NCBI RefSeq assembly: GCF_040529055.1
Contig: NZ_CP132342.1
Span: 1,017,001 to 1,081,000 of the forward strand
DNA: 64,000 nt
Direction: 5' to 3'
Origin: Xanthomonas sontii
Lineage (GTDB): Bacteria; Pseudomonadota; Gammaproteobacteria; Xanthomonadales; Xanthomonadaceae
Both the position numbers and the translations under genes were made by a program. This document shows, piece after piece, positions 2,579-64,000 of the stretch (the stretch's first letter is position 1; each line of letters begins with the position of its first letter). Below the pieces are notes generated by a model that had not been told where the DNA came from, searched no databases, and worked only from the letters and a program-made list of their open reading frames with translations.

Positions 2579-4652
<2,074 letters not shown>

Positions 4653-4671
4653 CCCCACCTTGGAGCCCTTC

Positions 4672-6117
4672 ATGAAGACAGGTCTGTTCGCCGGGTGGAA
4701 GGCCCGGTTCTACGCGGTATGCATGCTGATGCTGGTCAGCGCGATGGCGGTCGGCATCCCCGGCAAGGCGTTCGCCCAGGCCGAAACCACCCCGGCGCCG
4801 ACGCCGGACGTGGTCACCGAACAACTGACGCCGCCGCCTGCACCGGCCGCCGCGCCGGCCGCAGCCGCGGCCACGCCGGCGCCGGTGGTGGACAAGGGCG
4901 ACGTCGCCTGGATGCTCACCTCCACGCTGCTGGTGCTGCTGATGGTGGTGCCCGGCCTGGCGCTGTTCTACGGCGGCATGGTCCGCGCCAAGAACGTGCT
5001 GTCGGTGCTGATCCAGGTCGGCGTGGTGTTCTCGCTGATCGCGGTGCTGTGGGTGGTGTACGGCTACAGCCTGGCGTTCGCCGACGGCGGTCCGTTCATC
5101 GGCACGCTGCACAAGGCGCTGCTGGCCGGCGTCGACACCACCACGCTGGCCGACACCTTCTCCAAGGGCTTCAAGCTGCCGGAGTACGTGTTCGTCGCCT
5201 TCCAGTTGACCTTTGCCGGCATCACCGGCGCGCTGATCGTCGGCGCCTTCGCCGAGCGGGTGAAGTTCGCCGCGGTGCTGCTGTTCGTGGTCATCTGGTT
5301 CACCTTCGGCTACCTGCCGCTGGCGCACATGGTGTGGTCGGCCCCGGGCTTCCTGTTCGGCAAGGGCGCGCTGGACTTCGCCGGCGGCACGGTGGTCCAC
5401 ATCAACGCCGGCGTGGCCGGTCTGGTCGGGTCCTACTTCGTCGGCAAGCGCCTGGGCTTCGGCCACACCGCGCTGAAGCCGCACAACGTGACCCTGACCT
5501 TCGTCGGCGCCTCGCTGCTGTGGGTGGGCTGGTTCGGCTTCAACGCCGGCTCGGCGCTGGAAGCCAACGCCACCGCCGCACTGGCCTTCCTCAACACCCT
5601 GCTGGCCACCGCCGCGGCGGTGCTGGCCTGGTCGCTGACCGAGAAGGTGATCAAGGGCAAGTCCTCGGCGCTGGGCGTGGCCTCGGGCATGGTCGCCGGC
5701 CTGGTCGGCATCACCCCCGCCGCCGGCACCGTGGGGCCGTTCGGCGCCATCGCCATCGGCGTGGCCGCCGGCGTGATCTGCGTGTGGGGCGTGACCGGGC
5801 TGAAGAAGCTGCTCAATGCCGACGACACCCTGGACGTGTTCGGCGTGCACGGCGTCGGCGGCATCGTCGGCGCGATCCTCACCGGCGTGTTCACCGACAA
5901 GGCGCTGGGTGGCATGGGCTACGCCGAGGGCGTGACCATGGGCCACCAGGTGCTGGTGCAGGCCGAAGGCGTGCTGATCACCGTCGGCTGGATCGGCGTG
6001 GTCTCGGTGGTCGGCTTCCTGATCGCCAAGCTGGTGATCGGCCTGCGCGTGCCGGAAGACGCCGAGCGCGAGGGCCTGGACATCACCTCGCATGGCGAAT
6101 CCGCCTACGAGTTGTGA
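4672..6117 (+). CDS. amtB: Ammonium transporter AmtB
   Basis: AmtB forms trimeric channels that conduct ammonium/ammonia across the inner membrane and is closed by PII. The 481 residues start with a signal peptide (cleavage expected near AFAQA) and a Pro/Ala linker of about 45 residues. The transporter domain follows, with eleven hydrophobic stretches. Signatures include ALFYGGMVRAKN, the DFAGGTVVHINAG segment carrying the first pore histidine, and DDTLDVFGVHGVGGIVG carrying the second. A GGAG element precedes the ATG. It follows the PII gene closely and is followed by two strong hairpins, so the pair probably forms a two-gene operon. Confidence 0.97.
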   Translation: MKTGLFAGWKARFYAVCMLMLVSAMAVGIPGKAFAQAETTPAPTPDVVTEQLTPPPAPAAAPAAAAATPAPVVDKGDVAWMLTSTLLVLLMVVPGLALFYGGMVRAKNVLSVLIQVGVVFSLIAVLWVVYGYSLAFADGGPFIGTLHKALLAGVDTTTLADTFSKGFKLPEYVFVAFQLTFAGITGALIVGAFAERVKFAAVLLFVVIWFTFGYLPLAHMVWSAPGFLFGKGALDFAGGTVVHINAGVAGLVGSYFVGKRLGFGHTALKPHNVTLTFVGASLLWVGWFGFNAGSALEANATAALAFLNTLLATAAAVLAWSLTEKVIKGKSSALGVASGMVAGLVGITPAAGTVGPFGAIAIGVAAGVICVWGVTGLKKLLNADDTLDVFGVHGVGGIVGAILTGVFTDKALGGMGYAEGVTMGHQVLVQAEGVLITVGWIGVVSVVGFLIAKLVIGLRVPEDAEREGLDITSHGESAYEL

Positions 6118-6125
6118 GTTTCGCC

Positions 6126-6149
6126 GGCCCGCGACGGCGGTCGCGGGCC
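6126..6149 (+). terminator. Hairpin terminator after amtB
   Basis: GGCCCGCGAC-GGCG-GTCGCGGGCC is a perfect ten-base-pair stem with a four-base loop, nine bases after the amtB stop, followed by TTGT. Confidence 0.75.
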
Positions 6150-6205
6150 TTGTCGCAGTGAGTGTGACCGGTGCTGGTGGCCGGCCCTCGCGACCGCGGC
6201 CTTCG

Positions 6206-6232
6206 CCGGCGCTTCCTGGGGGGAAGCGCCGG
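6206..6232. terminator. Second hairpin in the amtB-ntrB gap
   Basis: CCGGCGCTTCC and GGAAGCGCCGG form a perfect eleven-base-pair stem around TGGGG. No T-tract follows. Apart from the two hairpins, the 328-base gap 6118-6445 shows no gene and no clear sigma-54 promoter for ntrB. Confidence 0.5.
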
Positions 6233-6445
6233 CCATTCTCAAAAGATCGAGGTATTCCGCGTGGCCATTCGCCTCGCCACACCCCCGGCTTTCCGCAAGA
6301 TTCCTGGTTGCGTCGTGATGCAGGGCCGGGTGGCACCACCCACTGGTCGTCAGGCGGCTGCGCGACGCGCCATCCGCAAGGGCAGCGGCCGCGTCATGCG
6401 CCGCATGCCCGTGTCGCCTGCCTGGCTTTGCACTACATTGGTGCA

Positions 6446-7483
6446 ATGACCATGAACACCACGCCGCCCCCGCTTTCCGCCCTTGGCACCCCGGTGGTCT
6501 GGGCTGATACCGACGGCCGCCTGCGCGGCGCCAATCCCGCTTTCGCGCGCTGGCTCGGGGTCAGCGTGCGGCGCCTGCTCGACCAGCCGCTGGCCTCGCT
6601 GGAAGTGCAGGGCGATGCGCTCGCACGGTTCCTGCGCAACGACGAGCGCGACGTGCTGCGCCTGCACCGCATGGCCCTGGCCGTGCCCGGCGAGCCGCCG
6701 CGCTTCGCCGAAGGCTGGCTGTCGCGGCTGGACGACGGCGGCTGGCTGCTGGAAGCGCACCCGGTCGACGAGTTCCCCACGCCGGACCCGGCGCAGGCCC
6801 TGCCGAACGCGCTCAGCGCGGCGCTCAAGGGCCTGGCCCACGAACTGCGCAATCCGCTGGCCGGGCTCAAGGGCGCCGCGCAGCTGCTGGCGCGCCGCGC
6901 CCAGCACCGCGACGAGGACGAGCGCGAACTGATCGAACTGATCGGCGCGGAGATCGAGCGCCTCAACAGCCTGCTCGACCAGTTGCTGTCGCCGGCGCCG
7001 GCACGCCCGCACGCCATGCTCAACATCCACGCCGTGCTGGAACGGGTGCTGCGCCTGGCCGAGAACGAAGGCGGCTGGTCGGTGCGCCTGCAACGCGACT
7101 ACGACCCCAGCATCCCCGAATTCCTCGGCGATGCCGACCGCCTCACCCAGGCGGTGTGGAACCTGGTGCGCAACGCGATCCAGGCCGGCGCCGCGCAGGT
7201 CACCTTGCGCACCCGCGTCGAGCACGGCCAGCGCATCCGCGACCGCGTGCACGCGCGCGGCCTGCGCCTGGAGATCGTCGACGACGGCCGCGGCGTACCC
7301 GAGGAACTGGCCGAGCACCTGTTCCTGCCGCTGGTCAGCGGCCGCGCCGAAGGCAGCGGCCTGGGCCTGGCGCTGGCCCAGCAGGTGGCGCGCGAGCATG
7401 CCGGCTCGCTGACCTACCGCTCCCGCCCCGGCCACACCGTGTTCACCCTGCTGCTGCCGCAGCGCGCAGCGGACACCGATTAG
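6446..7483 (+). CDS. ntrB: Nitrogen-regulation sensor histidine kinase NtrB (GlnL)
   Basis: NtrB phosphorylates and dephosphorylates NtrC under control of PII. The 345 residues have a small N-terminal PAS-like sensor (WADTDGRLRGANPAFARWLG), a DHp helix with the phospho-accepting His132 in LAHELRNPLAGLKGAA, and a C-terminal ATPase domain with the N box (VWNLVRNAIQAG), DDGRGVP and GSGLGLALAQ. No membrane segment is present, as expected for a cytosolic kinase. The ATG at 6446 (MTMNTT) is the first in a frame that would otherwise run into unrelated upstream sequence. The ntrC start follows after ten bases, with its own ribosome site. Confidence 0.94.
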   Translation: MTMNTTPPPLSALGTPVVWADTDGRLRGANPAFARWLGVSVRRLLDQPLASLEVQGDALARFLRNDERDVLRLHRMALAVPGEPPRFAEGWLSRLDDGGWLLEAHPVDEFPTPDPAQALPNALSAALKGLAHELRNPLAGLKGAAQLLARRAQHRDEDERELIELIGAEIERLNSLLDQLLSPAPARPHAMLNIHAVLERVLRLAENEGGWSVRLQRDYDPSIPEFLGDADRLTQAVWNLVRNAIQAGAAQVTLRTRVEHGQRIRDRVHARGLRLEIVDDGRGVPEELAEHLFLPLVSGRAEGSGLGLALAQQVAREHAGSLTYRSRPGHTVFTLLLPQRAADTD

Positions 7484-20888: not shown

Positions 20889-20908
20889 TCCGGCTACCGC
20901 CGGACACG

Positions 20909-20938
20909 AAAGCGCCCGGCCTGGCCGGGCGTTTTCGT
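20909..20938. terminator. Bidirectional terminator after gpsA
   Basis: CGAAA, a CGCCCGGCC/GGCCGGGCG stem around a single T, then TTTTCG. The A-rich left flank and T-rich right flank allow termination in both directions. Confidence 0.85.
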
Positions 20939-20984
20939 ATCCGCTGCGCACACCGGCGCTGCAGCGGTGGCCGGACGATCGCGT

Positions 20985-20997
20985 AAAAAAAGCCCGG
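20985..20997. repeat. Left 13-base direct repeat, candidate attL
   Basis: AAAAAAAGCCCGG here is repeated exactly at 26378-26390. The right copy is one arm of a working terminator, whereas this copy lacks the matching CCGGGC arm, as expected if integration duplicated part of a terminator. Confidence 0.5.
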
Positions 20998-21375
20998 CGT
21001 CAGGCCCTTTGTGCAAATCCGCATGGGCCTTGAAACAATATACGGGACAACAGATTAGCTCTATTTCGTGCCGCTTGCAGGTGATGTGGCGTTGTGGGCT
21101 GGGAGCCACATGAGATCCTTGAGAAAGCAAGCCGGGTCGCGCTGTAGCGGAAACGATTGCCAAGGGGCGGCGAGCTTGCGTCGATCTCAGCTCATTCCTC
21201 GGCAGTCTATCCAGAACGAGAACACGCAGCGATGGACTGTGGTGGGTGCCTTCAGCATGTTCGGGATCAGTCCGTGGCACTTCGACCGCCCTCCCATTTG
21301 CACCTTGCTCGTGCAACGTGCAATAGCGATCACAGCGCTAAGGTGAAAAACCTCGCCCTCCTGTCCGTGAAAGAA

Positions 21376-21420
21376 CGGGTGTCTTGCCCGATTTCGTGAG
21401 AAGATGGGGTAAGACACCCG
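21376..21420. promoter_or_regulatory. Large dyad upstream of the HTH gene, candidate operator
   Basis: CGGGTGTCTTGCCC (21376-21389) pairs with GGGGTAAGACACCCG (21406-21420) in 13 of 14 positions, with 16 to 17 bases between the arms. It ends 34 bases before the ATG of the HTH gene. As DNA it fits an operator for a dimeric MerR-like protein; as RNA it would form a stable hairpin. The remaining part of the 20939-21375 gap shows no gene. Confidence 0.6.
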
Positions 21421-21454
21421 ATTTCAGTCACGCAACCAACTTTTCTGGCTCTCT

Positions 21455-21961
21455 ATGCAACTTGTCACAACACGTGATGCAACAAGATTAACAGGCCTCT
21501 CGACGGAACAACTCCGCGAGTGGACGAGCCGTCGCGCGTTGATTCCTCCCGATGTGAAACCCAAAGGCCACGGTTCACCCGCTCGCTATTCTTGGCAGAC
21601 GATACTGCTGTTACGTTTGGCTGTCGTGCTACGCGACCGATTCAGATTGGAGCTACAGGCACACCGTGACCTATTTGCGCAACTAGGCGCGGGGCTAGCC
21701 CACGAATCCTTCCTGTCACTGTGGGGCAAGGCCTTAGCGCTTCATGGGGGAGCACAGTGGAGCTTGATTGATTCGCGCGATGAGGTCGTTTTCACTGACG
21801 ACTGCATCCTGCTCCGACTCGATCCCCACTTGCAGCACCTATTGGACGGTTTTTCTTTGCCCAAGCCGGTGTCGGTGAGCCAGTTCCAGCTCTTCCCGGC
21901 TCTTGGCATGGGAGGCGATCGTGTATTCAACGACCTAACTGGACACCGCCGACATGGGTAG
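21455..21961 (+). CDS. MerR-like HTH protein of the methyltransferase operon
   Basis: The 168-residue product opens with a MerR/HTH-17-type winged helix: VTTRDATRLTGLSTEQLREWTSRRALIPP followed by GSPARYSWQTILLLRLAVVLRD, where the Tyr/Ser-Trp wing is typical. The remaining 100 residues match no ligand-binding domain I know. No Shine-Dalgarno sequence is visible before the ATG, so translation may be leaderless or weak. The stop overlaps the methyltransferase start by eight bases, so the two are coupled. A large dyad upstream suggests autoregulation, as with controller proteins of restriction-modification systems; a role in target recognition is also possible. Codon use is less GC-biased than in flanking genes. 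Confidence 0.75.
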   Translation: MQLVTTRDATRLTGLSTEQLREWTSRRALIPPDVKPKGHGSPARYSWQTILLLRLAVVLRDRFRLELQAHRDLFAQLGAGLAHESFLSLWGKALALHGGAQWSLIDSRDEVVFTDDCILLRLDPHLQHLLDGFSLPKPVSVSQFQLFPALGMGGDRVFNDLTGHRRHG

Positions 21962-24900
21962 CGCCGCGTTCACGCAAGCCCTGACGGCGACTGGTTACCT
22001 CTTGCCGGACGGCAGCGGAGCACCTGGATTGATCCAAGCTGGAGAGGATTTCGGCGCACGCCTGCGATCTGTTCTATGCGACGGTCGAGTGGGCCTGCAA
22101 GCCGAGGCGGTCTTTTCAGCGCAGAGCGTGCCAACCGCCATCTTCAAGGACTCGGGCAATGAAGCTCCCTCTGAACAGCAGATAGCGCAATGGCACGAGG
22201 CTGCCTGGAACATCGGCGTGGCACCTCTGCTGTGGATCATCACGCCCACTGACGTGCACTTGTACGACTGCTATGCGTCACCGGTCAGCGAAAGCCCAGA
22301 GCATCTCGCCACTGTGCCGCTGGACGTGTTTTCCTTGCAGGCGGAGGACAGGCTGCGGTCCCTGGACGCCATGTGCGGCCGGTACGCGACTGAAACCGGA
22401 GCCTTCTGGTCAAGCGCCATCGGGCAGCGGATCGATCGCCGACATCGTGTGGATCGAGCGCTACTCGACGAAATCAATGCGCTTGAGGATCGCCTGACGA
22501 GCCTGCCGCCGGCCAGCGGCCAGCCGCTGCCGGATGGCAAGCAGGAAACGCAGGCATCGCGTGACTTTGCGCAGCGCCTGATCGGCCGCTGCATCTTCAC
22601 GTCGTACCTCGTTGACCGTGGCATCGCCCAGCCTTTTCTGCCGCCGGAACTCCCCGCCGACGTGGCTGGCATGTTCACGACCGTTGATTCGACCTTTACG
22701 CTGTTCCGGTGGCTTCGCAGCACCTTCAATGGTGATCTTTTCCCAATGGATGATCCTGGCGCCGAACACCAGCGCCTAGGCAAGGCGCACTTGGAACTCT
22801 TGCGGGACTTCGTTGAAGGCCGCAGCCTGCTGTCAGGCCAGGGCCGTTTGTTCCGATTCCGCTTCGATGCGATCCCCGTGGACCTGATCAGCTCGATCTA
22901 CCAGCAGTTCGCTCGATCGAGCGCGGCGGACGAGGCTCATGTGCAGGGCCTGCACTACACGCCGGTGGAACTGGTCCATCTGACGCTGGACCCGGTGTTC
23001 GAAAGGCTGCCGGCGCAAGCTCGAGTGATCGATCCGACATGCGGGTCGGGCGCTTTCCTGGTCGAAGCTTTCCGGCGGCTGGTATGGAAGCGCACTGAAG
23101 AAGCAAAGACGGCCAGCCGTGCCGTCGTGCGCGATGTGCTGCGCACGCAGCTTTACGGCATCGACATCAACAAGTCCGCCTTGGGCATCGCAGCGTTCAG
23201 CCTGTACCTAGCAGCTTTGGAGCTCGATGAGGAGCCGGTTCAGGACATACAGGATCTGAAGTTTGACCGCCTAATCGGCGTCACGCTTTTCGAGGCCGAC
23301 ACGGTTCACGATGAGTTGCCACCCCTTGTCGCGGCCAAGCCCTTTGACGCAGTTGTGGGCAACCCTCCGTGGACTTTCGTCAAGCGTGGTCGCCCCTCGC
23401 GCAAGCGCAAGCGCAAGGCGGAAGATGTTCAGTCCAGTCGGCCACGACGAAGCCCGGATCAGGAGTTTTTGTGGGTGGCATCGCGCCTGGCTGGCGATTC
23501 CGGGCGAATCGGCATGGTGATGAAGGCCTCGCCGTTCTTCTCCAAAGACGAGCATGCGATTCAGTCGCGCGAGGCGCTGCTGCGTGCACTTAATCCTGCT
23601 GCGCTGGTGAATCTGTCGGCGCTGCGAAAGGAAGGGCTCTTTCCCGACGCGACGGGGCCAGCGCTACTGTTCTTCGGCCGTTGCGCATTGACGGATCGCG
23701 ATGATCGCCTGCTGGTAGGGTCGATTCCGTGGACACCCGACTTCCGACGCAACGGGGTCTTTCATGTAGGTCCCGGAGAGTTGAAGAGCGTGCCGCTGTC
23801 GCGAGTCTTGCGCACACCTGCGATGCTCAAAGCGGCTGCGTTCGGGACCGTGCGCGATGGCTGGCTGATCGAGAAACTGGAGCGTATGTTTCCAACACTC
23901 GATCGATTGCTGACCGATCATGAATTGACTGCGCGCGGCCAGGGAATCAAGGTGCAGGGCGTTGGTGTTGAACGTCCCCCAGCGCACTACTATCAATTGG
24001 ACTTCGTTACCACAGAGGCCTATCAGCCATTTCGATTGAAGCCTGGTGCGCTCACAAGGTTCACTCATGAATGGCTGCATCGCTCCAGGAAGAAAAGGGT
24101 CGAGATGTTCAATGGGCCGGTGCTCCTGTGCCCGAAGGGGAGCCAGACCGATGCCATTGAATTGGGCCGCTACAGCGCAGCCGTCGTCGGACACAGTGCC
24201 CTATTCAATGAGAGCTTCTATGGCATTTCGTTTGCGGGCAAGGCCCTTGATGCTGCGCGTGTTCTTTCCGCCATCCTGAATTCGAGCCTCACCGCCTTTC
24301 AGCTTGCGATGGGCGGTGGGGCATGGGGATTGGAGCGACCCACGGTGGAGCCCAACGATCTGCTTTCGTTGCGTGTCCCGAATCTGAACGAGATCGATTC
24401 TGCGCTACTGGAATCGGTCTTGTCAGCGGAGGCTGCTCTTGCGCAGGAGCCTGGCAATAAGGCCTTGATCGAGGCACTCGACCACGCCGTGTGCGAACTG
24501 TATGGCCTAGATCGCGATGAGGCGACCCTTGCCTCTGATGGTGTTCAGCGTGCTCGCGCGCTCCTGTTCGAAGGTCGCAAGCATCGCATGGCCCTGACCA
24601 AGAGGCCGTCCAAGGACGACTTGGTGGCCTATGCCAGCGAGGTGGTCCACACGGTCAATGCCTACCTGCGTGCGCGCGGTAAGAGACACCTGGAGGCGGT
24701 CATCTATTCACGGCATGTTGCTGCCGGCAATGCCGCCGATGGTGTGCCGGGCGTGGATGCTGTGCGCTTCGCTATGGTGGCTGGCGCGCCGTCAGACACG
24801 CCTCGTGTGCATTTGGGCAGCGAAGCGGAGATCGAGCGGTTGGGAGCGCTACTGCGCGGGCAGGTCAACGCGGATGTGCCCCCCTATCTCAACGAACGGC

Positions 24901-25046
24901 GCCAGATACGCATCTACGACGAGAACGCGCTTTTTGTACTCAAACCGTCCGAGGCCCGCTACTGGACCCGAACAGCGGGGCTGAATGATGGGGATGTCGT
25001 TCTGGCGGATCACTGGATCAAGGGGTTCCATGCATCTGTCGCCTGA
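21954..25046 (+). CDS. Large N6-adenine DNA methyltransferase, Eco57I/type IIG-like
   Basis: The 1030-residue protein has a gamma-type amino-methyltransferase core. Motif I is DPTCGSGAF at residues 360-368, preceded by the HYTPVELVHLTLDPVF helix, and the catalytic motif IV is NPPW at 470-473. The first 300 residues are mostly unassigned; a segment around 85-105 (VAPLLWIITPTDVHLYDCY) recalls the N-terminal fold of type I and type IIG enzymes, but I see no intact nuclease motif there. Residues after about 650 probably hold the target-recognition domain (HEWLHRSRKKRVEMFNGPVLLCPKG) and a C-terminal helical part. It overlaps the upstream HTH gene by 8 bases and the downstream nuclease-like gene by 17, so all three are coupled. 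Adenine specificity is inferred from NPPW. Confidence 0.85.
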   Translation: MGSAAFTQALTATGYLLPDGSGAPGLIQAGEDFGARLRSVLCDGRVGLQAEAVFSAQSVPTAIFKDSGNEAPSEQQIAQWHEAAWNIGVAPLLWIITPTDVHLYDCYASPVSESPEHLATVPLDVFSLQAEDRLRSLDAMCGRYATETGAFWSSAIGQRIDRRHRVDRALLDEINALEDRLTSLPPASGQPLPDGKQETQASRDFAQRLIGRCIFTSYLVDRGIAQPFLPPELPADVAGMFTTVDSTFTLFRWLRSTFNGDLFPMDDPGAEHQRLGKAHLELLRDFVEGRSLLSGQGRLFRFRFDAIPVDLISSIYQQFARSSAADEAHVQGLHYTPVELVHLTLDPVFERLPAQARVIDPTCGSGAFLVEAFRRLVWKRTEEAKTASRAVVRDVLRTQLYGIDINKSALGIAAFSLYLAALELDEEPVQDIQDLKFDRLIGVTLFEADTVHDELPPLVAAKPFDAVVGNPPWTFVKRGRPSRKRKRKAEDVQSSRPRRSPDQEFLWVASRLAGDSGRIGMVMKASPFFSKDEHAIQSREALLRALNPAALVNLSALRKEGLFPDATGPALLFFGRCALTDRDDRLLVGSIPWTPDFRRNGVFHVGPGELKSVPLSRVLRTPAMLKAAAFGTVRDGWLIEKLERMFPTLDRLLTDHELTARGQGIKVQGVGVERPPAHYYQLDFVTTEAYQPFRLKPGALTRFTHEWLHRSRKKRVEMFNGPVLLCPKGSQTDAIELGRYSAAVVGHSALFNESFYGISFAGKALDAARVLSAILNSSLTAFQLAMGGGAWGLERPTVEPNDLLSLRVPNLNEIDSALLESVLSAEAALAQEPGNKALIEALDHAVCELYGLDRDEATLASDGVQRARALLFEGRKHRMALTKRPSKDDLVAYASEVVHTVNAYLRARGKRHLEAVIYSRHVAAGNAADGVPGVDAVRFAMVAGAPSDTPRVHLGSEAEIERLGALLRGQVNADVPPYLNERRQIRIYDENALFVLKPSEARYWTRTAGLNDGDVVLADHWIKGFHASVA

Positions 25047-25701
25047 CTTGCCCTTGGGGCGTCCATCGTTTGCGCTCTCGGAAGACGAGTTTGCGACCGT
25101 GGTTGATCTTCTGTGTCAGGGGGTTGCAACAGCAAGGTCGCTGTTGACGCCAGGGATGCTGGAAGTGCCCATCACGCTCCACGTCAAGAAGGCGATGCGC
25201 CGGCTGAAAAAGGAGCTCGGCCTGTCGAATCTTGAGATCACGGGCGAGTTCGAGCTGTTGGACATGGGCAACAACGATCCAGAGGTGCTCGGGCGCATCG
25301 ACATCGTTCTTCGCTTCCTGCACCAGTTCGGCGATGAGGAGGCCTACCTCGGCGTCGAGTGCAAGCGTGTGGGAGCTGGGGAAGCTGCGCTCAACCAGCG
25401 CTATGTCACCCAGGGCGTTAACCGTTACGTGACGGGGCAATACGCAGCTGGCCACTATCGTGGTGTGATGCTTGGATACGTGCTGAAGCTACCGAGCGCA
25501 GCCTTGGTGGAAGGCATTGATGCCCGTATACGCGCGACCTATGGCGAGGATGCGAAGCTGGTGGATCTGGATCCCCACGCCGAATCACTTTCGATACACG
25601 AGGGAAATCTGACGCAGGGGACGTCAGGCCACGTTATTCGCTTGACGCACGTTTTCGTGGATACGACGCCTGCGGCTTCCACCACTGCTGCAAGTAGCTG
25701 A
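25030..25701 (+). CDS. PD-(D/E)XK nuclease-like protein
   Basis: The 223-residue product carries a plausible PD-(D/E)XK core: an acidic strand TGEFELLDM, Asp91 in GRIDIVLRFL, and Glu110-Cys-Lys112 in YLGVECKRV, with a following helix and strand (QGVNRYVTGQYAAGHYRGVMLGYVL). The E-x-K placed on a hydrophobic strand about 19 residues after the Asp is the family pattern. AGGGG lies six bases before the ATG, inside the methyltransferase end. Next to a large adenine methyltransferase it would be the restriction or effector subunit; alternatively it could be an accessory protein that binds DNA without cutting. An IS fragment follows within about 25 to 100 bases. Confidence 0.72.
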   Translation: MHLSPDLPLGRPSFALSEDEFATVVDLLCQGVATARSLLTPGMLEVPITLHVKKAMRRLKKELGLSNLEITGEFELLDMGNNDPEVLGRIDIVLRFLHQFGDEEAYLGVECKRVGAGEAALNQRYVTQGVNRYVTGQYAAGHYRGVMLGYVLKLPSAALVEGIDARIRATYGEDAKLVDLDPHAESLSIHEGNLTQGTSGHVIRLTHVFVDTTPAASTTAASS

Positions 25702-25723
25702 ACAGCCTTCAGAGAAATTGTCC

Positions 25724-25983
25724 TTGTGATCTCTTAGGTTGTTCATCCGGGGCATCTCTGGAAGATGAGGGTTACCAAGCCAACCCAGCCCCCAGGAGCC
25801 CCGGATGAGCCTGCATAAACATGCCCGTTTGAACCTTCGCGGTCGAGCCCTGCTTGTGGATAGCATCCTTGTTCAGGGGCTGCGCGTCGAAGAAGCGGCG
25901 CATGCTGCCGGTGTCAGCCTCCGAACGGCCTACAAATGGCTCAAGCGCTTCAAGGAAGAGGGGCGTAAGGGTTGACCGACGCC
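25724..25983 (+). mobile_element. IS481-type insertion sequence fragment
   Basis: The left part of an insertion sequence is kept: TGTGATCTCTTAGGTTGTTC, a non-coding lead, and the first 56 codons of a transposase. The right part is gone, and integrase remnant sequence follows directly on the other strand from about 25984. The left boundary is an estimate based on TGT and the nuclease gene end. Confidence 0.6.
25805..25975 (+). pseudogene. Truncated IS481-family transposase
   Basis: Only the N-terminal helix-turn-helix region is left: MSLHKHARLNLRGRALLVDS, then EEAAHAAGVSLRTAYKWLKRF, then a stop after KEEGRKG. The MSLHK start and the AAGVSxRTAYKWLxRF pattern are typical of the leader part of IS481 transposases, which are normally about 300 to 350 residues with a DDE domain. 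The catalytic domain is absent, so the gene is dead. Its end coincides with the point where the integrase remnant breaks off. Confidence 0.75.
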
Positions 25984-26200
25984 ATGTGCGGGCCTGCTCG
26001 ACGGTTAGCTCCCCGTACTGGGGCCAGGCGGGCTTACGGCGCTCGCCGGCGTTCGTGCGGTACTGGAGCATGAACACCTTGCGGCCTGCCGGGGTGATCT
26101 TGCACAAGAAGCCGGGCACCACGGTGTCCCGGAGTTCGACGGCCTGCGCCTGGGGCCTTGCGGCATCGACGGCGGACTTGGTGAGTTTGATTCTTGCCAT
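25984..26200 (-). pseudogene. Remnant of a tyrosine integrase, N-terminal domain
   Basis: Reading from 26200: MARIKLTKSAVDAARPQAQA, ELRDTVVPGFLCKITPAGRKVF, LQYRTNAGERRK, YGELTVEQART. This is the DUF4102 arm-binding domain of P4-type integrases, about 70 residues. It is then cut off at about 25984 by the insertion-sequence fragment, so the catalytic domain is lost. An integrase reading inward from an island end is the normal layout for an integrative element, and the 13-base repeat lies 178 bases upstream of its start. The element can no longer move by itself. Confidence 0.78.
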
Positions 26201-26377
26201 GATGACTCCCCGGAAAACCTCGGCTTCCAAGAGCCACATGGGAGCCATGCGACCGGAAGCCGGGTCAAGTCTCGGAAAGCGCCGGCATATGATGGACGCG
26301 CCTAAACCCTTGATAAACCTGCTGTAGCGGGCTTGGGCGTAGTCCAGCGAAATGCCGGGCTGGAGTCATCGTCAAAC

Positions 26378-26390
26378 AAAAAAAGCCCGG
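26378..26390. repeat. Right 13-base direct repeat, candidate attR
   Basis: AAAAAAAGCCCGG, identical to 20985-20997. It overlaps the terminator of the Ax21 gene. The region 26201-26377 between it and the integrase remnant shows no gene and would be the attachment region of the element. Confidence 0.5.
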
Positions 26391-26407
26391 TCGTGGGACC
26401 GGGCTTT
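26378..26407 (-). terminator. Terminator of the Ax21 gene
   Basis: AAAGCCCGGTC-GTGG-GACCGGGCTTT forms an eleven-base-pair stem; on the minus strand it is followed by a run of seven T. It lies 54 bases after the Ax21 stop. Confidence 0.88.
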
Positions 26408-26460
26408 CCGAACCGCGCGCGGCGGGAGAGAGAGACGACGCGCGCGGCGCTAGGCAACGC

Positions 26461-27033
26461 TTACCAGCTGAAGCGCGGGCCGACGAACCATTCCTTGTCG
26501 CCGTGGCGGTCCATCTTCAGGTCGGCGCTCAGGCCCCAGTTCTGGTTCAGCTTGGCCTGGGCGCCCAGACGGCCGTAGAAGGTGCCTTCCGGATTGACGC
26601 CGTCCTTCTTCAGGTAGTCCTCGTAACCACCCAGGGCATAGACTTCCAGGTACGGGTTGAACGCGGTGCGGATACCCGCTTCGGCGCTCCAGCCGTTGAA
26701 CTTGGTGCCGTATTCCGGGGCGAAACGGTTGTAGGCCACGCGGGTCACCAGGTCGGTGCTGGTCGCGATCTCGTGGTTGTAGCCGGCACCGACGCGCCAC
26801 TGGTCGACGCGTGCGTCGGCAAAGTCGGTCTTCTGGCGGTTGAAGTCGCCGAACACGCTGAAGTTCGGGTGGAACGCGTAGGAACCCTTGACCGCCCAGC
26901 CGTCGGCATCGCCGCCGCTGGCGTCGGTCTTGACGTAGCCGGCTTCGGCATAGTTGTAGGAAAGGCCTTCGGCGGCCGAAGCGGCGAACGGCAGGGTGGC
27001 CAGGAGGCCGAGAGCAAGCAGAGAGGTCTTCAT
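26461..27033 (-). CDS. ax21: Ax21-family outer-membrane beta-barrel protein
   Basis: The 190-residue protein has a signal peptide (LLALGLLATLPFAASA, cleaved before AEGLSYNYAE) and a mature part made of short alternating beta strands that ends in PRFSW, a terminal aromatic as expected for an outer-membrane barrel. The sequence matches the Ax21 family of Xanthomonas and Stenotrophomonas (GYVKTDASGGDADGWAVKGSYAFHPNFSVFGDF region). Ax21 was once proposed to be a quorum-sensing or immune-eliciting peptide precursor; that claim was withdrawn, and an outer-membrane or vesicle-associated role is what remains. The gene is monocistronic, with its own terminator bordering the island. Confidence 0.9.
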   Translation of the reverse strand: MKTSLLALGLLATLPFAASAAEGLSYNYAEAGYVKTDASGGDADGWAVKGSYAFHPNFSVFGDFNRQKTDFADARVDQWRVGAGYNHEIATSTDLVTRVAYNRFAPEYGTKFNGWSAEAGIRTAFNPYLEVYALGGYEDYLKKDGVNPEGTFYGRLGAQAKLNQNWGLSADLKMDRHGDKEWFVGPRFSW

Positions 27034-59974: not shown

Positions 59975-60004
59975 TCGGCGCTGCGCCGATCGAGTGTGTG
60001 GAGA

Positions 60005-60034
60005 ACGGGATGGCCTTGCGGCCATCCCGTTTTT
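60005..60034 (+). terminator. Terminator after the M3 peptidase gene
   Basis: ACGGGATGGCC-TTGC-GGCCATCCCGT is a perfect eleven-base-pair stem and is followed by TTTT. The following gap (60035-60470) is of lower GC content and shows no gene, repeat or clear promoter. Confidence 0.93.
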
Positions 60035-60470
60035 CGTTGGGGTGATCTGGATATGCCTTGCGGCGCTGGTACTGACTCACTTCAAGGCGGCGAGGGATGC
60101 GGATGCCAGATGCGCTGGCTAGCAAAAACTCGACAATCCATTCCGCTGAGGTGGCAGTAACGGATATACGTCGTCCTCTTTCCGTACATGTCCGCGTCCC
60201 GCCGTGGAGGGCGCGATCCTCAATGCGGGCGGACTGCTCAGCCGCGCCAGTAGAGAAGGATGGAAATTTTTGTCTACGAGCATGGACGGTTCGAAATGAA
60301 TTTTTATCGATCCAAACTCCGTCAGATCCTAGGCGTCAAATCTCTCTTGGTGCAGCAGGATCCGCATTGATGGGTTCAAAGGCCTGCGTAACAGTTGCAG
60401 CGACGGATCGCCTATGTACCATCAGGGCGTGGTTCGAAGATTCAACCAAATCCACCACGAGGAGAGGACG

Positions 60471-61658
60471 ATGAAAGGAAACTGGATTGTGGGTATCGCG
60501 ATGCTGTGCGCTTGCTTTGCGGCGTCTGCCGCAGGACAGCTAGACATTCGACTGGAGCATGCGCAGGTTGCCAGAGCCAGCTCTGGCGGAGCGGTCATTA
60601 CGATGACTTTGACTAATGCGGGGAATCAGCCTATCGCGGTGCCTGATGCTTATGTTCCAGCGGTGAGCCGCGATGGGGTAATGCAAGCCAATCTGTTCCG
60701 CGTGTTGCAGGAAGACGGGAGCCCGGTAGACTACCGTGGCATTTACGTAAGCAAACTGCCGGGTTCGACGCCTGACGTCATCCTGCGTCCGGGTGAGTCG
60801 AGATCCGCGACGGTGGATCTGTCCCTGAGCTACCAGATCATGCCTGGCCGCCACTACTCTGTGACTGTGCAGCCTCTTCTGCGGTACCGCGAACTTCCGA
60901 CGGCCGCCGCCGCGAACGCTTCCGATCACCCGAACCAACTCAAGGCTGCCACATCCAACCGTATTGAGGTCACACCGCAGGCATCGGCCGAGCCTCAATC
61001 CGATGCTCGAAGCATTGAGGCCGCAGAGGCTGTTGCCTGTAGCGCCGAACAGCAAAGCGCGATTCAGGAGGCGGTGCTCAACGCCGGCGACCTCGCCCTC
61101 GCAACCTCGAACTACACACAGTCGCTCCTTCAATCCGACGGAAACGGAAACCTTACGTTCAACCAGACTCCGCGTTACACGAAGTGGTATGGCCAGTACG
61201 GCGACCCGAACGACATGTCCAGCCCGAATGGCACGGTCAACGGAAAGATCGCGTGGAGGATCCACGTCAATGCAATCCGCCTCGGGAAGGAAGAGAATCA
61301 ATTGCCGAATCCACCCACATTGTCCACGCAATGCAATTGCGAAAAGCAGGGAAAGGTTGATCCGGCGAATACGGTCGCGTGGGTGAACCCGTCCGAGCCC
61401 TACGCCATCAATATCTGTCCGCTGTTTTTCTCCCTTCCAGCCATCGGTAACGCGCAGAACACATACTCCAAGGCGGGGACGATCCTGCACGAGATCTCGC
61501 ACTTCAACGATGGGTACACGAAAGGTACGGACGATCTGGGTAACCCCAACCAGCCGGTAGAAGACGCAAAGCTCTTAGCCCAATCTGCGAGAGATTTGGC
61601 AGCCGACGCCGCGAACAATATTGAGTTCTACAGCGTCAACCTGGAAGGTGATCAGTAG
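60471..61658 (+). CDS. M35-like (deuterolysin/peptidyl-Lys) metallopeptidase, secreted
   Basis: The 395-residue protein has a signal peptide (VGIAMLCACFAASAAG), an N-terminal beta-sandwich of about 140 residues (LDIRLEHAQVARASSGGAVITMTLTNAGNQPI) and a C-terminal peptidase domain. The domain contains H340-E-x-x-H344 (ILHEISHFNDGYTKGTDD), and the nearby D/GTDD residues fit the aspzincin metal site of M35. Cys pairs (QCNCEKQ; NICPLFF) may form disulfides. GAGGAG is about seven bases before the ATG at 60471. Codon use is less GC-rich than in the core genes. Secreted M35 enzymes with such N-terminal domains occur in Xanthomonadaceae; the substrate is unknown. Confidence 0.82.
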   Translation: MKGNWIVGIAMLCACFAASAAGQLDIRLEHAQVARASSGGAVITMTLTNAGNQPIAVPDAYVPAVSRDGVMQANLFRVLQEDGSPVDYRGIYVSKLPGSTPDVILRPGESRSATVDLSLSYQIMPGRHYSVTVQPLLRYRELPTAAAANASDHPNQLKAATSNRIEVTPQASAEPQSDARSIEAAEAVACSAEQQSAIQEAVLNAGDLALATSNYTQSLLQSDGNGNLTFNQTPRYTKWYGQYGDPNDMSSPNGTVNGKIAWRIHVNAIRLGKEENQLPNPPTLSTQCNCEKQGKVDPANTVAWVNPSEPYAINICPLFFSLPAIGNAQNTYSKAGTILHEISHFNDGYTKGTDDLGNPNQPVEDAKLLAQSARDLAADAANNIEFYSVNLEGDQ

Positions 61659-61819
61659 CGTTGCAGGCCACGTGGCTTGTGAGGTGGTGTCATCCCGGCA
61701 TAAGTGTAGACCTTCGAAGACTGGCTTGGCGAAGCCAAGCATCGCAGCGAATTGGATTTTCACGGCGTAAGACTATTCATTTCCGAAGAGGCGCTCGTGC
61801 CCGCACGCCAATGTCGGGT

Positions 61820-62420
61820 TCAATGCAACTGCCTGCCTTTCGCGGGCGGCACCATCCACGGCAACGCATAGACCACACGCTCTTCGCGCACGCCATTGGA
61901 CGTTGGGGCGCGCAGCGGCTGGCGCGCGATCTGCAGCAGTAGTGTGCGTATCGCGTTGGCAGCATCGCAGAGCGTGTCATCCGTCGCTGGCACCTGCTGG
62001 TCGGCACGCTCGGGCACATCGCAGGCCGCCACCATCCCAGTGTGGGCCGAGACGGAGTCGGCCAGCAGGGTGAGTCCGTCGATCTGCTCTTGGGTGATCC
62101 AAAACCCGCTGTCATGTGTATCTGGCGTCGCCTCGGCGGTTGCAGAACGCCCGGCGCTGTACGTCGTGTCGATCCGCTGTGCTGGATAAGACAGCGCATG
62201 CAGTACCAGATCCACCTGATCGGCCCAACATTTCCAGGCACAACGCCAGCTCGCCCATGCGCACCTTGGGCTCCGCAGCCCGCTCCTCGGCCTGCGTTCG
62301 CGGCTGCGCCAGCCGGAGCAGGAACCGCACGTGATCGCGCAGCTTCGCCAGCCGGAACTGGCTGTCCTCCGGCAGGAAATAGCCGGGCATGTCTTCGTCG
62401 TCCAAGCGATCGTGCGACAT
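61820..62420 (-). pseudogene. XAC0095-like gene with a frameshift
   Basis: From 62420 the frame reads MSHDRLDDEDMPGYFLPEDS, QFRLAKLRDHVRFLLRLAQPR, VRMGELALCLEML and then loses sense. At 62224-62226 (CCC on the plus strand) one extra base moves the continuation ADQVDLVLHALSYPAQRIDT into another frame, which stays open to 61820 with GFWITQEQIDGLTLLADSVSAHTG. Joined, the protein would be about 199 residues. The MPGYFLPEDxQFRLxKLR start recalls the Xanthomonas XAC0095-like family of unknown function. Either a recent mutation or a base-calling error in the G run explains the shift. Confidence 0.7.
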
Positions 62421-62590
62421 CGTTGCCTCCTCGTTCCATCAAGGGGTGCGCCCGCCAAGAACGGCGGACGGGAAGTCGGGAGGTTCGAAACCGCACGTAG
62501 CCGGCGGGCATATTTCCCCGAAGGGTGTTGTATTAGCCGCCCTCCCGACGCAGGCATCGCGTCGGCTTGCGCTTGCAAGCATGCAGGCAC

Positions 62591-62620
62591 AAAAAACCCA
62601 CCGGTTTGTCGGAGGTGGGT
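62591..62620 (-). terminator. Intrinsic terminator on the minus strand
   Basis: Read on the minus strand: ACCCACC, an eleven-base loop, GGTGGGT, then six T. It lies 170 bases upstream of the XAC0095-like gene, so it must end a transcript that starts to the right, although no minus-strand gene is present there; a small RNA is possible. Confidence 0.7.
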
Positions 62621-62971
62621 ACCGCTACGTGAGGAGTTTCGACGCTCCTTGGGTCAAGAGTGCGACTGGTCGGTGAGTGTGTCAATAGATGATATGTAAG
62701 GCGTGAGCCAACCGACCCTCGAATCCAGTCAATCAGCCGTGTTGGCCATCTGATATGTTATTGCTCAGGCTTGCTAATGGGGCTGCAGGGCTGAATATGC
62801 TTGTGGCGAGGGTTTTGGGCCAGTGTTCGTTTTACGGAAACAGTAAATGCGGACGTGTAGGTTTTGGGTTTGAAGAAAAGGTAGGCCTAGTGAAGTATCT
62901 GGCTTGATTGAGAGACCGTTACGTTAGACATGTCTCAATACAGGAACGCATCAAGGAAAGGAGTTTGAAAA
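62621..62971. other. Gene-free, AT-richer border region
   Basis: No open reading frame of coding appearance is visible. GC falls from the core level to about half over this stretch. A short palindrome (AGACATGTCT, 62926-62935) stands about 35 bases before the helicase start. The composition change marks the left border of a second foreign segment. Confidence 0.5.
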
Positions 62972-64000
62972 ATGGACATCGACTATGACTTTTATGCGAA
63001 GAATGAGGTCTATAAAAGCTGGGCCGACCATCGGCTAATCTTTAAGGTTGCGAATGGTAAGACGGGCTTAAAAGGTTTCAGGTTGCCTCAAAGAGCAGCC
63101 GCATTCGCTGTCCTATCTCATCTCGATATGTCGCCTACAAAACCGGCAACTGTTGTGATGCCAACAGGAACCGGAAAGACCGACACCATCTTCGCACTTA
63201 TGTTGGCAGGGCTGTTCAAGCGAACGCTTCTCGTCGTTTCATCGGATGCCCTGCGCTCACAAATGAGCGAGCGTCTTGAGTCCCTGGCGACGTTAAGGCT
63301 GATCGAAGTTGTAACAGACGAGTTGCTTTCGCCTAAGGTTCATTTGGCAGCAGGCTTAAGTGGTGCGTTCGATCTAGGTGCGATAGAAGGAGCAAATGTC
63401 ACAGTCACAACTCCGGATACCCTGGCTCTACTTCAGACGGATGAACTACGGGAAGTCATGGGGTTTTTCACTCATGTCGTATTTGATGAGGCTCATCATG
63501 TGGTTGCCGAAACTTGGGAGCGCATTAGAGCTGCTGCCGATGGCAAGCCGGCTCTATACTTCACTGCTACTCCGTTTCGACTGGATGACCAGCGTATAAG
63601 CGGAAAAATCGTGTTTAACTACACGCTAAGGCAAGCCCAGCGCGATGGCTATTTCCAAGAAATTGAGTTCCATCCCATACGTGAATACCGGGAGGATATG
63701 GCTGACGAAGCTATCGCCAAAAAGGCTGTCGCTCTTCTTCAGCAGGACCTTAGGGATGGTTTTGATCACATCTTATTAGCGCGATGTTCGGGGATAGAGA
63801 AAGCCAATAGCGTCGCGGCCATCTATGCGAGACTGTCGGATGGGACAGACCTCAATCCTGCGCTGTTGCACAACAAGGTTAAGGGCCTCGCTGAAAGAAG
63901 AAAGGACGTTATTAACCGTAAGTGCAGAATTATCATTTGTGTAAACATGCTAGGGGAAGGATTCGATCTTCCTGAGCTCAAGCTCGCGGCAATCCATGAT
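62972..64000 (+). CDS. SF2 DEAD/DEAH-box helicase, N-terminal part
   Basis: The frame is open from an ATG preceded by AAAGGAG to the window edge, 343 codons so far. Walker A is VMPTGTGKTDT (about residues 62-72), the DEAH box is VVFDEAHHVV, motif III is FTATPFRLDD, and the second RecA domain shows motif V/VI beginnings (VNMLGEGFDLPELKLAAIHD). This is the layout of restriction- and defence-type SF2 helicases. The first 45 residues (MDIDYDFYAKNEVYKSWADH and after) are unassigned. GC is about 45 to 50 percent, far below the core, so the gene is probably acquired. The C-terminus and partners lie beyond the window. Confidence 0.88.
   Translation, partial: MDIDYDFYAKNEVYKSWADHRLIFKVANGKTGLKGFRLPQRAAAFAVLSHLDMSPTKPATVVMPTGTGKTDTIFALMLAGLFKRTLLVVSSDALRSQMSERLESLATLRLIEVVTDELLSPKVHLAAGLSGAFDLGAIEGANVTVTTPDTLALLQTDELREVMGFFTHVVFDEAHHVVAETWERIRAAADGKPALYFTATPFRLDDQRISGKIVFNYTLRQAQRDGYFQEIEFHPIREYREDMADEAIAKKAVALLQQDLRDGFDHILLARCSGIEKANSVAAIYARLSDGTDLNPALLHNKVKGLAERRKDVINRKCRIIICVNMLGEGFDLPELKLAAIHD

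Follow-up and report, generated by a model that had tools for sequence, protein, structure and literature searches.

Type IIG restriction-modification enzymes such as MmeI, BpuSI and DrdV are built in the order N-terminal PD-(D/E)XK-like domain, helical linker, N6-adenine methyltransferase and recognition domain. AdoMet stimulates their cleavage, which falls at a fixed short distance. Type IIG-like systems have been defined by their single recognition domain, and the text of the same paper reports split forms in which PLD, GIY-YIG or HNH nucleases are accompanied by translocases, namely AchA6III, OspHL35III and MexAMORF1192P (Blow et al. 2016, PMC4752239). According to that text, AchA6III and OspHL35III have no N-terminal endonuclease motif, MexAMORF1192P is unrelated to MmeI, and in type III restriction-modification the recognition domain resides on the modification subunit while a separate subunit restricts (PMC4752239). 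The locus described here lies in a 64,000-nucleotide stretch of the Xanthomonas sontii genome (contig NZ_CP132342.1, positions 1,017,001 to 1,081,000 of the forward strand; hereafter the window, whose own numbering is used for its features). It contains genes for a MerR-type helix-turn-helix (HTH) regulator, an N6-adenine methyltransferase that carries its own target-recognition domain, and a separate nuclease of the PD-(D/E)XK type. Judged by their sequences, the last two probably form a two-subunit, or split, type IIG-like restriction-modification system in which a separate subunit would cut without a motor.

Like the fused type IIG enzymes, the window's methyltransferase shares one chain with its own recognition domain, and the order of domains is the same. 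Unlike in those enzymes, its N-terminal domain lacks a conserved ExK motif in an alignment of 67 sequences and the active-looking nuclease is the product of a separate gene. With the split systems the pair has in common a methyltransferase bearing the recognition domain and a nuclease on another polypeptide, but the nuclease is of the PD-(D/E)XK type and the operon has no translocase (compared with the text of PMC4752239). Neither the text nor the S4 legend of that paper names an example that combines a PD-(D/E)XK nuclease with the lack of a translocase; its S3 table of 76 systems lies outside this comparison. No other split type IIG system was found from titles and the beginnings of abstracts in the open-access literature, preprints excluded, which is weak evidence of absence. 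The pair resembles type III systems in that recognition would belong to the modification subunit and restriction to another, yet it differs from them in that the operon has no helicase or ATPase gene and the putative restriction subunit is only 223 amino acids long. The window pair differs from the R.BspD6I heterodimer, whose large subunit is no methyltransferase but a nicking nuclease in its own right.

The initial annotation matched the three genes to no named system and proposed a profile search against defence models. In PADLOC, the type IIG models PDLC03603 and PDLC03623 both match 14 of 14 members of the methyltransferase set A5, one of them at 1.3e-257 and some over nearly their full length, and the large half of the pair is already catalogued there as a single-protein type IIG enzyme. 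The nuclease matches no PADLOC family. The statement that nothing named fits is therefore too broad, given these models and the split type IIG-like systems of PMC4752239, while it holds in the narrower sense that the examples named in that text have other nucleases. Weak PADLOC matches also link the HTH protein to mad1 (1.7e-5) and the methyltransferase to mad2 (3.1e-13). Membership in MADS was rejected, since the NCBIfam MAD2 model gave 25.2 of 720 bits and the nuclease matched no mad model; no relevant paper on MADS was found in the open-access literature.

Association of the methyltransferase and nuclease genes

A check of the open reading frames (ORFs) agrees with the initial description of three plus-strand genes, including their sizes, the overlaps of 8 bases between the HTH and methyltransferase genes and 17 bases between the methyltransferase and nuclease genes, and the motifs DPTCGSG, NPPW, D91 and E110-x-K112. 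The methyltransferase gene occupies 21954 to 25046 (plus strand, 1030 amino acids) and the nuclease gene 25030 to 25701 (plus strand, 223 amino acids). The longest ORF of the nuclease begins at 24985 (238 amino acids); the start at 25030 matches the aligned starts in loci L004 and L018.

Relatives of the methyltransferase were gathered by scanning named genome contigs with one motif, D[PL][AT]CGSG[VIA]F, and the best 80 of at least 380 confirmed loci were used, a choice that favours close relatives of the query. Other relatives came from tblastn on plasmids and from whole genomes. Nucleases were sought in the 80 loci with a profile (A4) of 15 sequences taken from the window, plasmids and whole genomes outside those loci, which matched 72 ORFs at the first pass and 74 after iteration. 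The nuclease lies directly downstream of the methyltransferase in 70 of the 80 best loci, where its longest ORF starts at -97 to +16 bases relative to the stop codon of the methyltransferase (-8 to +4 in 49 of the 70). Elsewhere in the set, the nuclease copy is displaced, overlapping or broken (L064, L083 and L090), the contig edge cuts off the locus (L054, L062, L100 and L102), or a partial methyltransferase stands without a nuclease (L079 and L095). By record title, the hosts include Proteobacteria, Bacteroidetes, Chloroflexi, Planctomycetes, Cyanobacteria and Acidobacteria as well as a Methanophagales archaeon (L034), in which the nuclease is present.

One locus of the set, L027 from Symploca, has an intact methyltransferase (3364-6447) and no nuclease homologue in the 6 kb downstream, and its methyltransferase is possibly an orphan or has a different partner. 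It lends itself to a reading of the whole family as regulatory or orphan methylation, with the nuclease serving some other purpose or restriction having decayed, and the truncated integrase of the window's genomic island points the same way. This reading is nonetheless extremely improbable, as 73 of the 76 loci whose contig does not end first do have a copy of the nuclease, and its catalytic triad is invariant throughout the nuclease family.

Searches that started from the nuclease gave matches in 2 of 369 genomes with a single protein, in 7 of 398 with profile A1 and in 10 of 385 with profile A6, the window's genome and G574 recurring. Profile A6 comprises 69 of the 74 matched nuclease ORFs, with broken, cut-off and fused ones omitted, plus the window's own. 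A methyltransferase lies immediately upstream in 15 of the 16 foreign genomes found in this direction (7 of 7 in one set and 8 of 9 in a further set), and the sole exception, L135, is the weakest match at E 3.8e-4. A downstream ORF was also present in all seven plasmid loci opened from tblastn matches; since A1 and A4 include ORFs of L006-L010 that were chosen by their position after the methyltransferase, those loci are not independent evidence of pairing, whereas the profile search of the 80 loci and the searches begun from the nuclease are. The methyltransferase of L004 is without its first ~295 residues. No such nuclease was found in eight plasmid loci with a fused type IIG gene (6.8-7.3 kb each, with 1.3-1.8 kb downstream of the gene).

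The conserved unit is the pair of methyltransferase and nuclease genes, two genes and not three. The recurrence of gene order, overlaps and nuclease triad in many phyla places the arrangement beyond chance. The distances among nucleases and among methyltransferases correlate over 67 pairs (r 0.79-0.88), but the correlation is high for every domain; it shows co-inheritance only and, singling out no docking domain, was not used for docking. The three-gene module of the initial annotation is upheld as a restriction-type methyltransferase and PD-(D/E)XK pair of a type II/IIG variant, with the HTH gene falling outside the conserved unit, and its suggested survey of co-conservation finds the pair kept together while the upstream regulator varies in type or is unrecognisable.

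Several variant loci and neighbours were seen along the way. In L009, L131 and L136 the methyltransferase is spread over two consecutive ORFs followed by the nuclease ORF, which could reflect decay, sequencing error or a real split. Four plasmids (L111-L114) carry a different arrangement, with a ribbon-helix-helix/CopG-type regulator, an N6 methyltransferase of ~587 amino acids and then a protein of the fused type IIG kind of ~1021 amino acids, joined by 4-base overlaps. The pair adjoins SIR2 and TIR genes in L010 (8775-11305) and SIR2 and AAA ATPase genes in L007 (10472-15042), as in defence islands.

The methyltransferase shares the fold of the BREX protein PglX/BrxX over residues 165-865, whereas the pair has an additional nuclease partner that BREX lacks. 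A BREX-like or signalling defence could be envisaged, with the methyltransferase labelling self and the nuclease acting as an effector that other host factors, rather than direct docking, would trigger. We regard this as very unlikely, because the PglX matches (61.6, 47.4, 44.2 and 36.4 bits) are far under their cut-offs (400, 500, 900 and 900, respectively), on which grounds BREX membership was rejected, and because neither pglZ nor any other brx gene is annotated beside the pair in seven plasmid loci.

Features of the two proteins

The large protein carries its methyltransferase motifs at residues 360-366 (DPTCGSG) and 470-473 (NPPW) within a catalytic core at residues 308-560 (22875-23633, plus strand), and it matches the Pfam families N6_Mtase (5e-18) and Eco57I (1.6e-11). 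The target-recognition domain region follows at residues ~590-840 (23721-24473, plus strand), as indicated by the C-terminal part of the matches to CamA, MmeI and BrxX and by local divergence between L029 and L030. The remaining C-terminal domain (residues 866-1030; 24549-25043, plus strand) has conserved R-x-W and DAD motifs, fits no known family and is a candidate docking site for the nuclease. When 65 N-terminal and 65 C-terminal segments of the methyltransferases were searched against Pfam and the PDB, no convincing family emerged, only scattered single-member matches, the best profile match being to a designed protein (E 0.026). Among 50,697 phage records the methyltransferase gave just two local matches at 14-15% coverage, and scanning viral contigs with a single-protein pattern yielded no match.

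The N-terminal domain of the large protein (residues 1-135; 21954-22358, plus strand) is a probable PD-(D/E)XK relic that has lost its catalytic motif. Aligned with the N-terminal nuclease domain of nine fused type IIG proteins, it gave an hhalign probability of 81 and a score of 37.6, compared with control scores of 9.2 for the reversed profile, at most 15.5 for 20 column shuffles, 11.1 for A9 and 22.3 for A6. The nine comparators have EAK in 9 of 9 and PDY in 8 of 9. In the alignment of the window's methyltransferase with 66 others (A7), [DE]xK is absent from all 67 sequences at the place expected for ExK, in both the register favoured by hhalign (55-57) and that of column 63, and at any other column of the domain it occurs in at most 4 of 67. 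The sole invariant residue in this region is W85.

In the small protein, D91 (25300-25302), E110 (25357-25359) and K112 (25363-25365) are identical in 70 of 70 nuclease family members from many phyla, and the D and ExK fall on consecutive strands, as the common PD-(D/E)XK core expects. PDDEXK_9 is found in four and HSDR_N in one of the 70 members by Pfam, and the window's nuclease itself has no Pfam match. PDB sequence searches with single sequences or profiles found nothing, NCBIfam returned one chance-level match (E 0.038, 14 of 275 bits), and Foldseek with the nuclease model gave no significant match. VIA-align placed BamHI, OkrAI and BstYI, compact type IIP enzymes of similar size, in its first eight rows.

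The last result, which also counts for the two-subunit reading, is what an orthodox type II pair would lead one to expect, in which a small BamHI-like nuclease recognises the site alone and the large protein is only its cognate methyltransferase. The DNA of L029 and L030 is 94-100% identical in the regulator gene and from methyltransferase residue 1 up to ~437, 81-89% from there to ~587, 66-72% over residues ~588-837 and 91-97% over the remainder of the methyltransferase. The dip coincides with the position of the recognition domain in CamA, MmeI and BrxX, and in L075/L081, L022/L024 and L058/L060, too, no part of the methyltransferase, or hardly any, is less conserved than this domain. Recognition most likely belongs to the methyltransferase's own target-recognition domain and not to the HTH protein, for which the initial annotation had left open a role as controller or recognition part; of these two roles, that of controller is the likely one. 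Nuclease residues 50-105 diverge alongside the recognition domain in L029/L030 (0.79 and 0.71) and L058/L060 (0.57 and 0.56), which favours the orthodox pair and weighs against a purely passive nuclease. The same patch stays at 0.84 in L075/L081 and L022/L024, however, where the recognition domain has diverged (0.68 and 0.62), and as evidence for recognition by the nuclease itself the patch is mixed. The nuclease can moreover be aligned across phyla with five invariant residues, a resemblance that orthodox type II nucleases with differing specificities usually do not show, and the large protein seems to retain a relic of a fused nuclease. Taken with these points, an orthodox type II pair is unlikely.

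In the split type IIG-like reading, the large protein would use its own recognition domain to bind a short site on the DNA and would methylate an adenine in it, so that host DNA is marked. The PD-(D/E)XK-like domain at its N-terminus, with the catalytic motif lost, would be kept as a scaffold. The small nuclease would dock on the large protein and cut when the site is unmethylated, presumably as a defence against phages. This allocation of recognition and methylation to the large protein and cutting to the small one is suggested because the genes overlap, the triad is invariant, the N-terminal domain appears to be a relic and the operon has no motor gene. As the operon lacks a gene for an ATP-driven motor, cutting should occur close to the site. 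The initial annotation also entertained a methylation-dependent module. Nothing was found in support of it, and a type IV-like activity was rejected by reasoning, because the nuclease gene is paired with that of the presumed host-marking enzyme, and the nuclease would face DNA marked by its own partner.

Upstream regulators and the genomic island

The gene at 21455 to 21961 (plus strand) encodes a protein of 168 amino acids whose MerR-like HTH, already recognised in the initial annotation, is supported by Pfam MerR_1 at 8.3e-6. Its subgroup is found upstream of the pair in the window, L018, L023, L025 and L132 (in L025 by alignment only, with no Pfam match). A different MerR_1 protein takes this place in L029, an XRE-like regulator in L005, L007 and L008, a ribbon-helix-helix-like one in L020 (the XRE-like and ribbon-helix-helix-like assignments all being under Pfam cut-offs), an HTH_11 regulator in L021 and a MazE/AbrB-like one in L048. 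LexA-like regulators, consisting of a LexA DNA-binding domain and an S24 peptidase, stand directly before the methyltransferase at L083:657-1298 (-4 bases) and L084:525-1142 (+6 bases). Many loci outside Proteobacteria have no clear regulator as judged by eye. The HTH gene would thus be an exchangeable regulator and is likely the controller of the operon.

A tandem dyad upstream of the MerR-type gene provides a candidate operator, made up of GGGTGTCTTGCCC at 21377-21389 and GGGTAAGACACCC at 21407-21419, both on the plus strand and 30 base pairs (bp) apart. Paired dyads of the form GGGTN5ACCC, with at most one mismatch each and 28-30 bp apart, occur upstream in four of the five loci with the window's MerR subgroup and in none of 98 other loci. 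Because the pattern was first noticed in four of the five subgroup loci, L132 alone tests it independently; of the two copies in L018, one is good and the other degraded. A single dyad with at most one mismatch is not rare (21 in the window against 27 expected), and it is unusual only as a pair, 28-30 bp apart, upstream of the gene. The tandem dyad appears to go with the window's MerR type, and through the two dyads ~30 bp apart the HTH protein may repress or time the operon.

The three genes sit on an insertion of ~5.39 kb between gpsA and an outer-membrane-protein gene (20985-26390), flanked by a 13-bp direct repeat (20985-20997 and 26378-26390). Of the 20 genomes of the genus that were compared, the window's has 5578 bp between these two flanking genes and all 19 others have 155-192 bp; the insertion with the three genes is absent from the remainder of this sample. 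The repeat has two copies in the window and a single copy at L107 and at L108, the closest empty sites; it is not present in L109 and L110, which are more distant. Among 199 relatives searched, the nuclease was found in one, the window's own genome.

The low guanine-plus-cytosine (GC) content and mobile debris pointed out in the initial annotation are both real features of this island. The GC fraction is 0.60-0.62 across 21001-26000 and ~0.70 further out, and the right end holds an N-terminal fragment of an IS481 transposase (25805-25972, plus strand; LZ_Tnp_IS481 5.8e-17) together with a truncated tyrosine integrase (25772-26248, minus strand) that retains only the Arm DNA-binding domain (Arm-DNA-bind_3 1.8e-9) and whose 3' part crosses the IS481 fragment. 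No Rfam family reached its gathering score within 20900-26500. A second low-GC stretch (0.54-0.61) lies at the right end of the window, from 60000 to 64000.

Significance of the proposed split arrangement

Beyond the window, a broader proposition can be put forward whose chances appear evenly balanced. The pair would represent a widespread, unnamed subtype hidden under the label of type IIG, in which the ancestral fused nuclease lost its activity and was retained as a platform for docking, and a family-wide stand-alone PD-(D/E)XK nuclease takes its target wholly from its methyltransferase and needs no motor. Regulators, including LexA-like ones, would be swapped freely, and the LexA-like regulators of L083 and L084 would couple the restriction system to DNA damage.

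If the split reading is right, a family of single-protein type IIG entries amounts to half a system, the nuclease being an unlabelled neighbouring gene. That would allow predictions as to which of these enzymes, taken by themselves, methylate without cutting and what must be supplied for them to work. A nuclease whose specificity came from a separate methyltransferase, with no need of ATP, would be useful as a modular cutter. The pair would also illustrate how fused restriction enzymes may come apart, with the old active site lost and the domain kept.

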